Source: Methanoculleus taiwanensis (GTDB taxonomy: Archaea; Halobacteriota; Methanomicrobia; Methanomicrobiales; Methanoculleaceae). Taken from it: a stretch of DNA of 64,000 nucleotides. The DNA is taken from positions 1 to 64,000 of the forward strand of contig NZ_LHQS01000004.1 of assembly GCF_004102725.1 (NCBI RefSeq), given 5' to 3'. Position 1 is the stretch's first letter. Each line of letters starts with the position of its first letter. Shown here piece by piece: positions 8,562 to 16,991 of this stretch. Position numbers and translations under genes: made by a program. The notes beneath the pieces are model-generated. The model did no database searches. It was not told the origin of the DNA and was given only the letters and a program-made list of their open reading frames with translations.

Positions 8562-10175
8562 TCAGAAGCTGGTGTCGAGCCCGTCATCTATCGGCCTTCT
8601 GACCGGTTTTCTGCCAAGTTCGTCAATATACTCCTCGAAGAGATGGATGCGTGTACTCACCGGGAAGGGAATACGCAGCGTGCTGATAACCGCTTCACCG
8701 GGTTCGAGCGTCTGAATCTCCGTATCGAGGCGTGAGAGATCCTGTTTTGCGCTGCTGGCGATGGTATCGCGGTCGCCCCTGTCCGAGAGCCCCATAACGA
8801 CGAATGTGTTCAGCTGGGCAAGCACACGGGCATCGATATTCTTCGGCTGCTGGGTCACGACGCAGATGCCGACACCAAACTTTCTCCCTTCCATCGCACA
8901 TTCACGGAAGATACGGGTGCTCTGACCACCGGAACCGAGTACCCGCTGTGCCTCCTCGATCGCTATCAGCACCTGCTTCTGCTCGCCTGACCCGCCGCCG
9001 CTCCCGCACATTGCGTCTTCCCCCTGGTGGCGGCGCATAATCTCACGGGTGAGTATCGAGAGAACGAAGAGTTCGCTCTGTTCGCTCATCCGGGGGATAT
9101 CAATCAGCACAACCTTGTTTTCATGGAGCGCTTTGATGATCTCGGGTATCGACGAACCCTTCGAACGGAGAAACGACCGGTTCCGGGAGACCATACTCTC
9201 GACATGCCGCTGCACCACCGGGAGCGTCTTCGTTGAAAAATTTCGAAGATCCCACGCAATATCCCGATACTCCCCCGTATAGGCGTTGGCATCGAAGTCG
9301 GAGAGATCCTCGTTCTCCTCAAAAAAGCCGATAACATCGGAGCCCGGATACTTCTCCAGTTTCTCGATGACGTCACGTTGGGCATCCGAGTGTTCGTACA
9401 GGAGCAGAAGATCCGGCGACCTGAAGTCATCGTACTCGAGCCAGAGGCGGTTGAGGCCGTACTTCTTCCGTCTCGATTCGTCTATCGTGAAGACCGCGAG
9501 ACCCTCGCGCCCGGCCTGGTAGTGGACAAGACCCTTGGTGGGTAGTCCGCTCGACGACCGACCGCCCGCAACGTACTCGCCGTGGGGATCGACGATCAGG
9601 AGGCCGAACTGTCTGGCAGCCATACAGGATGCACAGAAGACTTTCATGAAATTACTCTTCCCCATACCGGTCGTTGCAAAAACGCCCATGTGCTGGCGCA
9701 TGACGGCTGCGTGGAGAGAGACCTTCACATCCTGCAGGACACCCTGGCCGCTCTTCATCACGCCGACCTCGATCTCTCCCATCACCTGCCGCAGGAAGTG
9801 GAAGTCCTCTGCGCTCGGCCGTTCGACCCGCGCAAACTTCGCCGGGATCGTCCGGGGCTTTCGAAAGCGCTCGTCGTCTCCCACATAGCCAAGCGGCAGC
9901 GCCTCGACGAGAATGTAGACGTCCTCTCCAAGACCGTAGAAGTGTTCGGTATGGGGGCGTGTATCCCACCGCGGGTCGGAGAAGTTGCTGTCGTGAATGA
10001 GATCGCTCACTTTCGCAAAGAAGACCAGTCCCTTGACCGTATCGGTGATCTTCAGGATGTCCCCGATGTAGAACTCCTCATCGTGAGGAACTGCGAAGCG
10101 GTAGCTGAGCACCCGATCCCCGATCAGGCGGTACTTCGAGGTATCGTTCAGGTTAATATCGATCAAACTCGTCAT
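8562..10175 (-). CDS. herA: HerA bipolar DNA helicase/translocase
   Basis: The 537-residue HerA/FtsK-superfamily ATPase pumps DNA into the NurA nuclease during end resection with Mre11-Rad50. The N-terminal HAS barrel is followed by Walker A at residues 167-175 (ATTGMGKSN), which has Ala where a canonical P-loop has Gly. Walker B is at about 402-409 (VLIAIEEA), with an arginine-rich region after it. The frame runs to 10199, but ATG 10175 is chosen because it begins inside the last codons of nurA, overlapping by 23 bases, as is usual for this operon. It is the last gene of mre11-rad50-nurA-herA. Confidence 0.95.
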   Translation of the reverse strand: MTSLIDINLNDTSKYRLIGDRVLSYRFAVPHDEEFYIGDILKITDTVKGLVFFAKVSDLIHDSNFSDPRWDTRPHTEHFYGLGEDVYILVEALPLGYVGDDERFRKPRTIPAKFARVERPSAEDFHFLRQVMGEIEVGVMKSGQGVLQDVKVSLHAAVMRQHMGVFATTGMGKSNFMKVFCASCMAARQFGLLIVDPHGEYVAGGRSSSGLPTKGLVHYQAGREGLAVFTIDESRRKKYGLNRLWLEYDDFRSPDLLLLYEHSDAQRDVIEKLEKYPGSDVIGFFEENEDLSDFDANAYTGEYRDIAWDLRNFSTKTLPVVQRHVESMVSRNRSFLRSKGSSIPEIIKALHENKVVLIDIPRMSEQSELFVLSILTREIMRRHQGEDAMCGSGGGSGEQKQVLIAIEEAQRVLGSGGQSTRIFRECAMEGRKFGVGICVVTQQPKNIDARVLAQLNTFVVMGLSDRGDRDTIASSAKQDLSRLDTEIQTLEPGEAVISTLRIPFPVSTRIHLFEEYIDELGRKPVRRPIDDGLDTSF

Positions 10176-11190
10176 GGTAATCTCCAAAGAGGCGTACATA
10201 CTCGCGGTGGCTCATGCCCTGCTCGGCCATCCCCCGCATGAGATCCTGGCGTATCTGATCGACGGCATCCTTCCCTATCTTCGTCGTCAGATGTGCATCC
10301 AGGAGGGGGTAGGGGTATCCGGTGATCCTCCCGTCATCGGCATAGGCGGCAAGGCCCGAGAATACCGTCGCCACCGTCTCACAGCTGTCGTAGCGGGGGA
10401 GTTCGACCTTGAACGCTCTCTGGGAACGGTGATGGAGTCGTGCAATATACTGGTCGCCACGCTGCTTCCAGGGACGTGACTGCTGGCGGTCGAGGATGGC
10501 CTCGAGCCCCGATACACGGACGAACCATGGTTCGGGAACTCCATACTTCTTCGCCAGCCCCTCGGCCGCAGGGACGATCGGGTACCCGCCTCCCCAGGTA
10601 AGCGAGGTACGTTTCGTGACCGCAGCCAGGAGAATACCGCGGAGGTTGCAGAGGTTCATCAGCCGGACCAGGATCTCATCGTGGCTGGCATGGCTGACCC
10701 GCAAGGTACCGTCGATCAGAATCAGATCACCGGCATCGAGTGTCCCGGCCATCTCCAGCGCTACCCAGTACTCGAGGGTATCGCGCATCACGGCGGCGTT
10801 CTGGAGCGGGTCGTCGTGGTAAAGCAGCGCTTTCGGCGAAGATGCGAAACAGTCCGAGAAGAGCGCTTCAAACTCGTCGTTGCACCCATCCGGGTGTACG
10901 GCGACGAGGTGCATGGGTGTTGTCGCCCTCCCGTGCCGCACCCCGCCGCGGTACGAACTTGCCGATGCCCGAACCACCGCCGCCGAAAAACTTCCTGCGT
11001 CGAGGAGAAGGGCGTTGCTCCCGTCGACCGCGCAGACAGTTCCCTCAAACCCGGATGGGCAGGTCAGGAACGATGAAGGATCGAATCGGCTGACTCTCGC
11101 GAACCGGTCAATGATATCCGCCGGTGCATACTCCCTGATCCGTCCGGCGAGCCTCGCCACCGACTCCCGGTACTCCCCGTGCAGGTCCAT
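10153..11190 (-). CDS. nurA: NurA 5'-3' nuclease
   Basis: The 345-residue NurA-family nuclease is the partner of HerA. The family's metal-binding start is visible in VCAVDGSNALLLDAGS, and a second acidic motif in LILIDGTLRVSH. ATG 11190 overlaps the rad50 stop as TGATG, with a TTG one codon earlier as an alternative. The gene lies between rad50 and herA, the classical archaeal arrangement, and products of the four genes act together to make 3' single-stranded tails at double-strand breaks. Confidence 0.92.
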   Translation of the reverse strand: MDLHGEYRESVARLAGRIREYAPADIIDRFARVSRFDPSSFLTCPSGFEGTVCAVDGSNALLLDAGSFSAAVVRASASSYRGGVRHGRATTPMHLVAVHPDGCNDEFEALFSDCFASSPKALLYHDDPLQNAAVMRDTLEYWVALEMAGTLDAGDLILIDGTLRVSHASHDEILVRLMNLCNLRGILLAAVTKRTSLTWGGGYPIVPAAEGLAKKYGVPEPWFVRVSGLEAILDRQQSRPWKQRGDQYIARLHHRSQRAFKVELPRYDSCETVATVFSGLAAYADDGRITGYPYPLLDAHLTTKIGKDAVDQIRQDLMRGMAEQGMSHREYVRLFGDYHDEFDRY

Positions 11191-14100
11191 CAACGTATCT
11201 CCCGGATACGGCTCGTCCTGTCGGCGCCCATCTCCACCATCAGCGTCGACGAGAACTCGTCCTGCACCTCGGTGATATGCGAGATGAGAAAGATCTGCGG
11301 GAAGTAGCTCTCCTGCGTCCTGAGAGCCCGCACCAGATTGCTCCGCCGCCCCTCGTCCTGGCTTGCAAAGATCTCGTCGAAGATCAGGAACGTACTGTCG
11401 TGCATCTCGTTGACCTCCGCAAGAAATCGTGAGAGAGCGATGCGGAGGGATATGGCGATATCGTCCTGCTCTCCTCCGCTGAACCTGTCGGCAGGGTAGT
11501 CCTCGCCCATATCATGCACCAGAACGGCAAAGTCATCGTCGAGCATCACCGTATCGTAGCGGCCGTCCGTGATCTCCCCGAGAATACGACCGGCCTCGTC
11601 CTCGATCCGATCCCTGACAACCTGCAGGAGATAGACGATGTAGTCGCCGATGACCTTGCGGGTCAGGCGCAAGAGCTCGATCTCCTCCCGGAGCCCCTGG
11701 CTTGACCGGACAAGTTCACCGATCCGGGAGAGAACCTGGCGGAACCGTTCGATATCCCGCTCGGTCTGCTGCATCCCGATTGCTATCCGGTTCTGCTCTT
11801 CGATGCAGGTCTGCAGCTCCTGCTCTGCCCTGGCAAGGGCTTCTTCAGCAGCCGCGACCTGCCGGTCGTCAAACCCGAGCAGAGCACGTTCCTGCCGGAT
11901 CCGGAGGATTTCGGCTTCGCACTGGCGTGCTTCGGCCAGTCTCTTCTCGAGCCTGCTCCGGAGGCGGGGAATCTCCTCCATCCGCACCTCGAGCTCGAGC
12001 ACCCGCCGGCGTGCATCCCCGGCACGGCGGTACAGCTCCAGCAAGAACTGGTGCCGGGCGGGATCATACGCCAGCTGCACTCGTTCCTCCTCGCGATCCC
12101 GTATCGCCCGCTTCAGGCTCTCGATCCGTGCGTCGAGCTCCTCACATTCCTCACAGTACTTCGGTTTCCGGGAAAGGAGTGCCTGATTGTGGGTATACTC
12201 CCGATGCAGCCCTTCGAGCTTCTCCCGTTCCTCCTCAAGCCGCTTCTTTTCGACCGGGTCGAAACCGAGTGACCGGAGTGCGGCTTCGAGCACTTCCTTT
12301 CGGGCAAGGTGCCCTTCAACCTCGGTGATCAATTCTTTGCGCTCTTTTCGGAGTGCCGGAAGAGAACTGCAGATACCCCGGAGCGTATCTGCACGCGACC
12401 GTTGCTGTTCGAGTGCTGCCCTTCGCTGCTTTACGATCTCGTGTTCATCGGCATCATACCGCAAAAGACCGAGTTCGCGAATGGCGGCATCGTGAATCGC
12501 ATACTCACTCTGCCACTTCAGAAGGCGGCTCATCAGATCCTGCCGGCGAGAACTCTCGAGTGCCAGCGCGCTCAAGATCTCCTCATGCTGCCGGCGCTGC
12601 TCGTCGAGGTCTGCGAGATCCCTCTGTATGCACAACTGCTCGGCGGCAGCACCGGCACGGCTCTCTTCCACTGCCGCCAGAGAGGCCTTGAGCGACGTAG
12701 CAGTCTCTGCGAGCTCGCCGAGGAGATCCTCATACCGATCCCCGAGATGCTGGTAGCATGTCGGGCATCTCCCTTCCCTTCCGGCGAGGGTGAGTTCGTC
12801 ACGGTTACGGGCAATCTTCTCAATTTCCCGACAGATAGCCTCTTTACGTGCAATGCACGACGAAACGACGGACAACAGTTCTTCCTTTCGACACGTGAGG
12901 GCGGAAACCTGACCTTCCAGGTCATCCAGAGCGGCACGACTGCCCGATAGCGCCCCAATCCGCTCATCGATCTCGCTCACCTGCGCCGCAAGGTCGTCCA
13001 TCTCCCGCCGGCAAAGCATCTGCTGTCGGGCGAAGACGGCGGCCCGCGCGAGGAGATCATCGCGACTGCAGCAGTCGCCGTACTCCTCAAGTGCCGCTTC
13101 GAGTTCCTCGAGGCGCCGCTGCTGCTCCTCAACCACTTCGATCTCGCCCCTGATCTCGACGACACGCCGTTCCACCACGCAAAACCGCTCGTCCAGACGT
13201 GAAAGATCGTCCTGAAGGCGCACATACTCCGGCTCGATCGCCTTCAGATCGTCAAGGCGGTCAAGGAGAACCCGCCTTCTTGCGATCTCCTGCTCAAGGC
13301 TGTTCTGCCGCTCTTCACACTGCCGGAGCGATTCGAGATCCGAGACGATTCGTTGCCGCCGTGCCTCGTGCTGTCCGATAAGATCATGCCATTGTGCGCA
13401 TTCGAGTTCGATCCGCTCTACGCATGCCTTCTTCTCCGCATATCCGGCAACACCCGCCTCCGCCTCCTCATAGCGGCCGGCGGTTTCGGCAAGACGGGCA
13501 ATCTCCTCGCGGTGTGCTTCGTTTTCCGCGATCTCCTCTTCAATCTCACGGCACTCCAGAAGGATCCGCTCGAGCTCCCCTGCCTGCCGCGACTCTTCGG
13601 CACCGAACTGGAGATACTGCTCACGGACTTTGAGCAGGCGGCCCAGTTCTTCCCGCACCTCGTCCCGCCGCTCTCCTGCCGCTGTCCGCTCTTCACCGGC
13701 TCTCCGGATCGCACGCTCAGCCGCTTCGTAGTCGCTCTGCAACGAGAGCAATCTGTCCCGGACAGCCTCAGCATCGAGTTCTTCAAGCCTTCCGGTCAGA
13801 TTGGAGAGCTTCTTTTCGCACCCGTCGATGAGCCTCCTGAGTTCTTCCATGCTGTCCCGTTTGAGGTACTCGATGCCGAGCACCTGCATGAACCAGTCCT
13901 TTCTCGACCCCGGGCGGCTCTCGAGGAGCGAGAGGAGATCCTTCTGGCCTGCATAGATAGTGTTCTTGAAGTCGGCAGGCCCCATGCCGATCACGCGCTG
14001 GACTCCGAGCAGAACATTCTGCACGCCGTCGGCGTACTCACCGAACGGTCTCCCATTCAGAAAAAGGCGCGCTTCATGCAACGTCGAAGACGGACGCTTC

Positions 14101-14372
14101 CGAAATCTGCGGACAACGCTATACTCATTCCCGGCTACGGAAAAGTCGAGCCTGACCTCGCATGGCTCCTGCCGGTCGACAAATGCGCTGACGATGTAAC
14201 TCCCATCGAGACCCGTTCCCTGCAGCCCGTAGAGTGCGAAGAGGATAGCCTCTATGATGCTGCTCTTCCCGGCACCGTTATTCCCGACGATACCGGTTAT
14301 CCCGTCGCAGAAGGTGATCTCCTGATCGCAATAGCGTTTGAAGTTGCGCATGACAAGCCTATGAAGAAGCAT
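11190..14372 (-). CDS. rad50: Rad50 double-strand break repair ATPase
   Basis: This 1060-residue SMC-like ATPase has Walker A at residues 30-38 (GNNGAGKSS), long coiled coils, and the zinc hook CPTC at 536-539, placed centrally as expected for dimerization. The ABC signature FSGGEQDD and Walker B FLIFDEIF sit near the C terminus. Length is a little above that of well known archaeal Rad50 proteins (about 880-1000 residues), consistent with slightly longer coils. The start overlaps the end of mre11 by 14 bases, and the end overlaps nurA by one base, so translation of the operon is probably coupled. Confidence 0.97.
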   Translation of the reverse strand: MLLHRLVMRNFKRYCDQEITFCDGITGIVGNNGAGKSSIIEAILFALYGLQGTGLDGSYIVSAFVDRQEPCEVRLDFSVAGNEYSVVRRFRKRPSSTLHEARLFLNGRPFGEYADGVQNVLLGVQRVIGMGPADFKNTIYAGQKDLLSLLESRPGSRKDWFMQVLGIEYLKRDSMEELRRLIDGCEKKLSNLTGRLEELDAEAVRDRLLSLQSDYEAAERAIRRAGEERTAAGERRDEVREELGRLLKVREQYLQFGAEESRQAGELERILLECREIEEEIAENEAHREEIARLAETAGRYEEAEAGVAGYAEKKACVERIELECAQWHDLIGQHEARRQRIVSDLESLRQCEERQNSLEQEIARRRVLLDRLDDLKAIEPEYVRLQDDLSRLDERFCVVERRVVEIRGEIEVVEEQQRRLEELEAALEEYGDCCSRDDLLARAAVFARQQMLCRREMDDLAAQVSEIDERIGALSGSRAALDDLEGQVSALTCRKEELLSVVSSCIARKEAICREIEKIARNRDELTLAGREGRCPTCYQHLGDRYEDLLGELAETATSLKASLAAVEESRAGAAAEQLCIQRDLADLDEQRRQHEEILSALALESSRRQDLMSRLLKWQSEYAIHDAAIRELGLLRYDADEHEIVKQRRAALEQQRSRADTLRGICSSLPALRKERKELITEVEGHLARKEVLEAALRSLGFDPVEKKRLEEEREKLEGLHREYTHNQALLSRKPKYCEECEELDARIESLKRAIRDREEERVQLAYDPARHQFLLELYRRAGDARRRVLELEVRMEEIPRLRSRLEKRLAEARQCEAEILRIRQERALLGFDDRQVAAAEEALARAEQELQTCIEEQNRIAIGMQQTERDIERFRQVLSRIGELVRSSQGLREEIELLRLTRKVIGDYIVYLLQVVRDRIEDEAGRILGEITDGRYDTVMLDDDFAVLVHDMGEDYPADRFSGGEQDDIAISLRIALSRFLAEVNEMHDSTFLIFDEIFASQDEGRRSNLVRALRTQESYFPQIFLISHITEVQDEFSSTLMVEMGADRTSRIREIR

Positions 14373-15507
14373 CGTTCGCCTCCCTCTGCCGGGCGATCAC
14401 CGACCGCAGGATCCCGCCGCCCTTCTCTTTCACATACGCCTCCTGGGTCTCATTCAGGTGCTGCATCTCCACAAACCGCTGAAACTCCTCCACGTAGTCC
14501 ACACCCGCGAGGCTCTGCTCACGAAAGACCGGTGAAGGATCTTCGGCAGCAATGGTCCGAAACTTCAGATCCAGAAGGCCGCTGCGCAGATCATTGAGTG
14601 CCCGCTGATCGAGTCCCCGCAACGTCTCCCGGAGCACCCCGTCGAGAGTGATCTGGCACATGCCCCCGTTCGGCATATGGCTCTTCGAGATGAGATCGAC
14701 GATCTCCTCGAGGATATCCTTTGCAGCAAGCCCGTCGCAGTTTATCCTGCCGAGATCGACCATCGGGGTGCGTGCAAGATCAATATGCTGCACACTCCGA
14801 TCATCAAGATCGACGAGCAGCCCACCTTTCGTATCCCGGATCTCACCGTAGGTGCAGTACTCGAGAGAGCCGCTGTACCAGGCGTTGTCGGCAACCTGGC
14901 TCTGGGCGTGGTAATGGCCGAGCGCTATGTAGTCGAACCGGTCAGAGAGGATCGTGGCATCGATCTCATGTTCCGCCACCGTCTGCAGCCGCCGGTCCTT
15001 GATAGCGCTTGCAAGGCCGTGCGTAACGAGGACGTTCTTTCCGGTTCCAAACTCAATCGCGTCGAACGCCTCCCGGTACCCGCTCGTCTGCAGCATATTG
15101 GGGATCAGGTGAAAGACCGTATCACCGATCTCGACCCGGTGGTACTGATGCCGGTACGCGGCATGGACCTCGGCGGTATGGTACTCCAGCACCTCGAGCG
15201 GGGATGTCGTGTGGCGGGTCTTCGCCATGCTGTGGTTCCCGGCGATGACGACAAAGGGAATTCCCGCCTCTTCGAGCCTCCTGAGCGCTTCAAGGACGGT
15301 CGTGTAGGCACGGGTCTTGGGCTTGACCTGGTGAAAGAGGTCGCCCGCATGCACGATTACGTCCGGCCGCTGCCGGACAATCTGATCGACCGAAGCAAGA
15401 AAATTATCGTATATCAGCTGTTCCCGTAAATTCATCCCGGTTTCAGGGTTTATCTTATTGAACGCCGAGAGCCCGAGGTGCGTATCCGCAATATGAACGA
15501 TTCTCAT
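14359..15507 (-). CDS. mre11: Mre11 double-strand break repair nuclease
   Basis: The 382-residue metallophosphoesterase is the nuclease of the Mre11-Rad50 complex. All phosphoesterase motifs are present in order: IADTHLG (residues 6-12), HAGDLFH, IAGNHS, VTHGLAS and GHYHAQS. The capping domain and the C-terminal Rad50-binding helices follow. ATG 15507 has AGGTGAT about nine bases upstream. It is the first gene of the leftward operon with rad50, nurA and herA. Confidence 0.96.
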   Translation of the reverse strand: MRIVHIADTHLGLSAFNKINPETGMNLREQLIYDNFLASVDQIVRQRPDVIVHAGDLFHQVKPKTRAYTTVLEALRRLEEAGIPFVVIAGNHSMAKTRHTTSPLEVLEYHTAEVHAAYRHQYHRVEIGDTVFHLIPNMLQTSGYREAFDAIEFGTGKNVLVTHGLASAIKDRRLQTVAEHEIDATILSDRFDYIALGHYHAQSQVADNAWYSGSLEYCTYGEIRDTKGGLLVDLDDRSVQHIDLARTPMVDLGRINCDGLAAKDILEEIVDLISKSHMPNGGMCQITLDGVLRETLRGLDQRALNDLRSGLLDLKFRTIAAEDPSPVFREQSLAGVDYVEEFQRFVEMQHLNETQEAYVKEKGGGILRSVIARQREANDASS

Positions 15508-15598: not shown

Positions 15599-15610
15599 CT
15601 ATATATCATA
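15599..15610 (+). promoter_or_regulatory. TATA box for the SepCysS operon
   Basis: CTATATATCATA is a strong TATA box in the short region between mre11 and the rightward operon. Initiation about 26 bases on would fall near 15630, leaving only a few bases before the TTG start at 15634. Confidence 0.6.
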
Positions 15611-15633
15611 GCTGATATTAGTATGGTGATATT

Positions 15634-15816
15634 TTGTCCAGACGGGCCGTAGATGCAATTTTTCAGGCGCTGTTCAACCTATCGGATCTCCGGGCGCTCA
15701 TGCGTGAGACCGCTCCGGATCACGCTATGGACGACGAGCAGAGACAGCGGGCCGCTACGTATATCGAAAAGACAAAGCGGCAGATCGCGATCGTCGAGGA
15801 GGAGTTGATCCGATGA
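15634..15816 (+). CDS. Small helical protein coupled to SepCysS
   Basis: This 60-residue ORF starts at TTG 15634, with GGTGAT just upstream as a possible ribosome site. Its stop overlaps the start of SepCysS (ATGA at 15813-15816), so the two are translated from one message and probably coupled. The sequence is almost wholly helical and charged: a first helix about 5-22 and a long second helix about 32-58 (KTKRQIAIVEEELI). I do not recognise a family. Methanogens of other groups have an adaptor, SepCysE, whose N-terminal helices tether SepRS and SepCysS. A reduced adaptor of that kind, or a detached N-terminal extension of SepCysS, is a guess from position only. Confidence 0.7.
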   Translation: MSRRAVDAIFQALFNLSDLRALMRETAPDHAMDDEQRQRAATYIEKTKRQIAIVEEELIR

Positions 15817-16991
15817 AGTGCGCAATCGATATCGACGTACGCGACGTCGAAGAGCTGTTCATCAACATCGACCCGATCCAGGCAGGGGGCAGACTTACTC
15901 CCGATGCCATGAAGGCGGCGATCGCCTACGGAGACGGATATTCGGTCTGTGACGCCTGCCAGAAACCGTTCAGGTTGGACTATATCAAAAAACCCCCGAT
16001 TGCACAGTTCCATACCGACCTTGCAGAATGGCTGAATATGGATCAGGTGCGCGTCGTGCCGGGAGCCCGTCGGGGATTCCAGGCGGTTGCAAGTACGTAT
16101 GTCGAGAAAGGCGACCCCGTTCTCCTCACGTCTCTCGCCCACTATACGGAGTTTATAGCCGTAGAACAGGCCGGGGGCATTCCACGGGAGATCCCGAAGG
16201 ACGAGAAGAACCACATCACCCCGGATGCCGTTGCAGCAAGAATCGAAGATGTGATCGACGAGTTCAAACGCGCACCCCCGCTCATGTTCCTCGACCACGT
16301 CGACTACCAGTACGGCAACGTCCACGATGCAAAAGCAATCGCGAAAGTCGCCCATCAGTACGACATCCCTATCCTTCTCAACGGGGCATACTCGGTCGGG
16401 ATCATGCCGATCGACGGCAAAGACCTCGGTGTCGACTTCGTGATCGGCTCCGGGCACAAGAGCATGGCCGCACCCGCCCCGTCGGGTCTCGTCGCGACGA
16501 CCGCCGAGCATGCAGAACGGGTCTTTCGGACTACCCGGTCAAAAGGCGACATCACCGCCAGAACGTTCGGGATAAAAGAGGTCGAGATGATGGGATGCAC
16601 CCTCATGGGAGTCACCGTCATCGGGATGATGGCATCCTTCCCCCACGTCAGGGAACGGGTGAAACACTGGGATACGGAAGTAGCACGCTCCCGCCGCATC
16701 GTCGATGCGCTCCTCTCCATCGAGGGGACACGGGTCCTCTCCGACTATCCGCGCACCCACACGCTGACCCGTATCGATACCCGCAACTCCTTTGACAAAG
16801 TTGCAGAGGTGCATAAAAAACGGGGTTTCTTCCTCTCGAACGACTTAAAGAAGCGGGGAATCACCGGGGTCATACCCGGCTCGACCAAGGTCTGGAAGTT
16901 CAACACCTACGGGCTTACGGAGAAACAGGCAGACCACGTTGCGAACGCGTTCGTGGAGGTTGCCCGGGAGAACAACCTCTCCGTCAGCTGA
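15813..16991 (+). CDS. pscS: Sep-tRNA:Cys-tRNA synthase (SepCysS)
   Basis: The 392-residue PLP enzyme converts O-phosphoseryl-tRNA(Cys) to cysteinyl-tRNA(Cys), the second step of the indirect cysteine pathway of methanogens. The PLP lysine is Lys216 in GSGHKSM. Cysteines that carry the sulfur are in place: Cys46 and Cys49 (CDAC) and Cys262 (MMGCTLMG), matching the three essential cysteines known from the Archaeoglobus enzyme. Its start overlaps the small upstream ORF by four bases. Its end overlaps the end of convergent thiI by eight bases. SepRS is not in the window. Confidence 0.95.
   Translation: MKCAIDIDVRDVEELFINIDPIQAGGRLTPDAMKAAIAYGDGYSVCDACQKPFRLDYIKKPPIAQFHTDLAEWLNMDQVRVVPGARRGFQAVASTYVEKGDPVLLTSLAHYTEFIAVEQAGGIPREIPKDEKNHITPDAVAARIEDVIDEFKRAPPLMFLDHVDYQYGNVHDAKAIAKVAHQYDIPILLNGAYSVGIMPIDGKDLGVDFVIGSGHKSMAAPAPSGLVATTAEHAERVFRTTRSKGDITARTFGIKEVEMMGCTLMGVTVIGMMASFPHVRERVKHWDTEVARSRRIVDALLSIEGTRVLSDYPRTHTLTRIDTRNSFDKVAEVHKKRGFFLSNDLKKRGITGVIPGSTKVWKFNTYGLTEKQADHVANAFVEVARENNLSVS

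Follow-up and report, generated by a model that had tools for sequence, protein, structure and literature searches.

The window, the whole 64,000-nucleotide stretch analysed here, is part of contig 4 of the 2.75-Mb archaeal genome of Methanoculleus taiwanensis. A small open reading frame (ORF) lies directly in front of the gene for SepCysS on the plus strand, and the following features were located at this site.

15600..15606, plus strand: TATATAT, a TATA-box-like word, its surrounding block being kept in the nearest relative (locus L002)
15625..15630, plus strand: GGTGAT, a Shine-Dalgarno (SD)-like word, 3 nt upstream of the TTG start
15634..15816, plus strand: ORF of 60 aa (SepCysSn, see below), TTG start, TGA stop at 15814-15816
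15813..15816, plus strand: ATGA, the stop-start overlap common to the ORF end and the SepCysS start
15813..16991, plus strand: SepCysS, 392 aa, ATG start, matching TIGR02539, PRK09331, and PDB 3wkr_A

The identity of the downstream gene as SepCysS is secure, as judged from the scores for TIGR02539 (406.8 bits against a cut-off of 365.25) and PRK09331 (605 bits) and from the PDB match to the SepCysS chain 3wkr_A (E 1.6e-87). The TTG start, the GGTGAT ribosome site, and the ATGA overlap described in the first-pass annotation are all in place, and through this overlap the translation of the two genes is probably coupled. The TATA box that was also pointed out is present as TATATAT, but its role beside GGTGAT is doubtful by spacing. 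The usual distance from an archaeal TATA box to the transcript start is about 25 nt, and transcription would thus begin around 15627-15630, within or beyond GGTGAT, leaving scant leader and possibly a transcript devoid of the SD word. One of the two signals may therefore be unused. A CTGATATTAGTATGGTGA-like block at window 15610-15630, directly before the start codon, is near-constant in seven Methanoculleaceae-type loci, a conservation above expectation for a spacer; the 100 bases upstream of the start are 57% identical (ungapped) to those of the nearest relative. Divergently upstream, on the minus strand at window 8562-15507, are four ORFs resembling an archaeal HerA, NurA, Rad50, and Mre11 repair cluster (named by eye). 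No tRNA gene was found in the window, and thus the tRNA(Cys) linkage reported for some clade VII loci is not apparent here.

The small ORF is widely conserved. Among 150 genomes of the order Methanomicrobiales, 144 gave a match at E<=1, and in 140 the best E value was below 1e-8, a level of recurrence beyond chance; in the 70 loci fetched, which include the window and hold 68 distinct CDS, the ORF stood directly before SepCysS in all 69 with a readable distance, so that the conservation in front of SepCysS proposed as a check on the small gene was indeed observed. The 10 genomes with no match better than 1e-8 consisted of six with no match at all (G038, G061, G067, G103, G117, and G123) and four with weak matches only (G056, G057, G069, and G127). 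SepCysS itself was present in 142 of the 150 genomes, and every one of these 142 carried the N-terminal domain encoded by the ORF, 139 as a split gene and three (G056, G069, and G117) only as a domain fused in front of SepCysS. In one of the 139 split cases (G136) the ORF is broken off after 42 residues by unreadable sequence, and in one genome (G044) the ORF is present without SepCysS. Several copies of SepCysS per genome were also noted within the order: two fused forms and a split one occur in G022 (L087, L088, and L022), while G054 (L042 and L043) and G042 (L044 and L045) have two split pairs each.

Within the 70 loci, from which L031 (the same place as L001) and the desulfurase-like L032 and L033, lacking SepCysSn, were left out, the ORF has a length of 59-60 codons, and the overlap with SepCysS is 4 nt long in 59 loci. 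The start codon is GTG in 31, ATG in 30, TTG in eight, and CTG in one, and 60 of the loci have an SD-like word within the 17 nt that precede the start. The nearest named relative in the collection searched, Methanoculleus sp. FWC-SCC1, has a small protein of 83% identity (G116 of the same genus gave a match at this same identity). Against the nearest relative, dN was 0.085 and dS 0.554, and the differences were distributed over codon positions 1, 2, and 3 as 7, 4, and 16 of 60. Over 660 pairs with 0.2<dS<1.5, the median dN/dS was 0.27 and the maximum 0.76, none reaching 1. The residues D18, R20, R24, P28, and H30 are invariant in the 40-member alignment. The ORF is thus confirmed as a gene under purifying selection.

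When the single window sequence was searched against Pfam, NCBIfam, and PDB, no match was obtained. A profile of 40 ORF-family sequences (A1) was then compared with 177,635 PDB sequences, and the sole match was MJ1481, that is SepCysE (E 0.0059 for the full chain and 0.034 for the N-terminal construct), with residues 11-52 of the profile aligned on SepCysE 54-95; the best single stretch is weak (i-Evalue 0.28 for the full chain and 0.069 for the construct). A wider profile including the fused relatives placed SepCysE first and second (E 0.021 and 0.022), with unrelated proteins following from 0.14. The Pfam family matched by most of the 40 members is DUF2100 (six members, best E 0.0029), which is taken as the SepCysE family through the control match in M. 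jannaschii, and a search of all 40 members against NCBIfam gave just scattered weak matches. The AF2 model of the 60-aa product is a two-helix hairpin (residues 3-25 and 34-59; pLDDT 96.9, pTM 0.79), in agreement with the all-helical product read earlier from the letters. In a Foldseek search with this model, SepCysE chains occupied ranks 1-5 of 192 with probability 1.00 and weak E values of 0.1-0.24. By VIA-align, 59 residues were superposed on SepCysE 42-100 at 1.8 A, with a Z score of 8.3 as compared with up to 8.5 for unrelated hairpin chains. Two-helix hairpins are common among proteins, and because of this tie in Z score, the link to SepCysE is carried by the Foldseek rank and the sequence. 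Each of these lines is modest alone, but the profile match, the Foldseek ranks, the position before SepCysS, and the fused relatives taken together allow a clear reading: the 60-aa ORF is homologous to the SepCysS-binding N-terminal domain of SepCysE. The connection to this adaptor made in the first-pass annotation is thereby borne out at the level of the domain.

A peptide of this kind has been named SepCysSn by Mukai et al. 2017 (PMC5424206; also PMC8762117), and the ORF is SepCysSn as described in the relevant passages of these papers. Methanomicrobiales is not named in the SepCysSn passages considered here from the two papers, and nothing was found in open-licence literature joining SepCysS with Methanoculleus. 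As a small gene, often with a non-ATG start and unmatched by any Pfam or NCBIfam model, SepCysSn is easily missed in annotation.

In many methanogens, all Cys-tRNA is made through SepRS and SepCysS. In line with the published description of SepCysSn, the genome of the window has SepRS, while nothing over the cut-off was detected in it for CysRS and no match for SepSecS. Full-length DUF2100 over the curated cut-off was detected in none of 148 genomes of the phylum sample, that of the window included, and the M. jannaschii control passed. According to PMC5424206 and PMC8762117, the known occurrences of a full adaptor are limited to class I methanogens and to some members of the TACK and Asgard archaea. 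At a different locus (L114, minus strand), SepRS of this genome overlaps the end of an upstream ORF resembling 4-demethylwyosine synthase (named by eye), another tRNA enzyme.

Outside the order, the phylum was scanned with the ORF-family profile, and 172 of 392 genomes gave a match at E<=0.1. Split genes were found in one further family (f7), mostly two per genome, and in many other members of the phylum the domain and SepCysS form a single open frame of about 440-500 codons, the type called SepCysSN. The 30 SepCysS with the highest scores in the phylum sample are devoid of the domain, as no open frame of theirs matched either profile at the threshold used. The fused proteins were collected as a set of 27 (A2), those with no clear ATG start or longer than 475 aa being omitted, and a mixed set of 16 split and 19 fused rows (A3) was picked by hand; L103, a region of 100 bases, was excluded from all counts. 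R20 and R24 are the sole residues invariant in all 35 rows of the mixed set. A separate observation was made at L097:1150-7090 (G376; also L096:1208-3355, G245), where a complete fused SepCysSN is preceded at about 4.4 kb by a stand-alone N-domain of 63 aa, and the interval holds ORFs similar to nucleotidyltransferase, HEPN-like, and SIR2-like proteins (named by eye); the arrangement suggests that the 5' end of the SepCysSN gene was duplicated by an insertion.

In a tree of 99 SepCysS, all 35 split rows form a group (98/93) nested within the 34 fused ones, with the 30 canonical SepCysS on the other side (100/100), the outgroup branch being long. Within these 99 sequences, the SepCysS of the window groups with the fused SepCysSN type at 100/100 against the 30 canonical SepCysS. 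In 57 of 62 split loci, R24 and the INI motif are 158 nt apart, one frame off; in 33 fused genes the corresponding distance is 153-186 nt (median 162), all in frame; eight of the 70 split and one of the 34 fused loci were left out since the search motifs were unmatched. Because the linker of the split form is about as long as that of the fused form and one frame off, the split form has the appearance of a fused gene that a small frame change has cut in two. Fission of a fused gene into two chains is thus favoured by the tree and the linker length but is not proven: when all 34 fused SepCysS were kept as one group, lnL was 6.19 lower and the AU test did not reject this arrangement (p 0.399). 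The suggestion of the first-pass annotation that an N-terminal piece of SepCysS became a separate chain therefore fits the tree and the kept linker length, and the reverse direction is left unrejected. The opposite direction, a peptide fused onto SepCysS, is suggested in the relevant passage of PMC5424206.

Whether so small a protein could act as a minimal adaptor was judged from the known contacts. According to PMC5688128, the SepCysE N-helix (1-24) of M. jannaschii contacts SepRS at the loops 376-380 (ILDEF), 411-414 (FNGE), and 494-498 (ALVSN), and SepRS binding is abolished when this helix is deleted; SepCysS is bound by the N-terminal domain (35-101) and tRNA by the C-domain. Residue 1 of the ORF falls at about SepCysE 42-44, so that both the N-helix 1-24 and the linker are missing, and the ORF ends after the hairpin, with the C-terminal tRNA-binding domain also missing. 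The fused relatives for which starts were set have their first residue no more than about seven residues from the hairpin and are likewise without the N-helix. On the side of SepRS, the residues of the docking loops kept in 30 SepRSs of the order were 7/150 for ILDEF, 28/150 for ALVSN, and 51/120 for FNGE, as compared with 1901/5362 (35%) over the C-terminal region; the divergence in the order is strong for loops 1 and 3, while loop 2 is partly kept. With the N-helix missing and the loops diverged, both sides of the known contact are mostly absent, and SepCysSn probably does not bridge to SepRS through it, though a contact of another kind is conceivable. A minimal adaptor that channels Sep-tRNA(Cys) by holding on to both SepRS and SepCysS, in the manner of SepCysE, as had been considered at first, would agree with the homology to SepCysE and with a genome that has SepRS without full SepCysE; given the lost helix on one side and the altered loops 1 and 3 on the other, we regard it as improbable.

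Part of the tRNA-holding of the lost SepCysE C-domain might instead be replaced by an accessory of SepCysS that contacts tRNA(Cys) through R20 and R24. The two arginines are shared by all split and fused rows, and Asp and Tyr are at these places in M. jannaschii SepCysE, but salt bridges to SepCysS are equally possible for arginines, and this role appears rather unlikely. The tight stop-start overlap could also be that of a leader ORF, of which the translation sets SepCysS expression and the product has no role; the low median dN/dS, the five invariant residues, and the occurrence of the domain as a fusion with SepCysS in relatives make this explanation hardly credible. Ribosomal frameshifting at the overlap, yielding a single SepCysSN-like protein, would agree with the near-constant R24-to-INI distance, close to that of the fused genes and one frame away, but the junction is unconserved, varying from overlaps (-4 or -1) to gaps (0 to +3) and in some cases with TAA as the stop, and the chance of such a mechanism is minimal.

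These observations altogether make it likely that the ORF is SepCysSn, a stand-alone hairpin of the SepCysE type and a putative small subunit of SepCysS, which, for want of the SepRS-binding N-helix, forms no bridge to SepRS of the known kind, and which most likely was split from a fused SepCysSN. SepCysSn and SepCysS would be made together through the stop-start overlap, and the hairpin would take the place that the SepCysE domain has on the SepCysS dimer, forming a small fixed subunit that steadies the dimer or aids its hold on Sep-tRNA(Cys). The separate SepCysSn would have originated from a fused SepCysSN gene through a small frame change that divided it. The model of a fused protein was poor (pLDDT 71.8, pTM 0.60) and did not display docking of the hairpin. 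Since R20 and R24 are invariant and yet absent from SepCysE, the role of the domain may have shifted. In a wider and tentative proposal, to which we give somewhat less than even chances, a single split of SepCysSN, shared by Methanomicrobiales and a neighbouring family and caused by a frame change that left the linker length intact, gave rise to an obligate two-chain SepCysS with a subunit that is without the SepRS-bridging parts and reliant on the new invariant R20 and R24. If this is true, the pathway would run without the transsulfursome bridge, and the direction of the event would be opposite to the published proposal. As every SepCysS-bearing genome sampled in the order has SepCysSn, split or fused, the group provides a simple test of the role of the SepCysS-binding domain without a bridge.

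Among the known systems, SepCysSn as presented in the cited passages shares with the ORF a separate small gene before SepCysS and the lack of a C-terminal tRNA-binding domain, and no essential difference from these descriptions was seen. SepCysE (MJ1481, DUF2100; PDB 3wkr, 5x6b, and 5x6c) shares the hairpin of the N-terminal domain (residues 42-100), but the ORF is without its N-helix 1-24, linkers, and C-terminal tRNA-binding domain, whereas SepCysE of M. jannaschii is without R20 and R24, with Asp and Tyr at the aligned places. The fused form SepCysSN, as outlined in PMC5424206, has the same hairpin with the invariant R20 and R24 before the same type of SepCysS, but as one chain, whereas two chains are encoded here, with a one-base frame offset, a TGA stop, and a new ATG.
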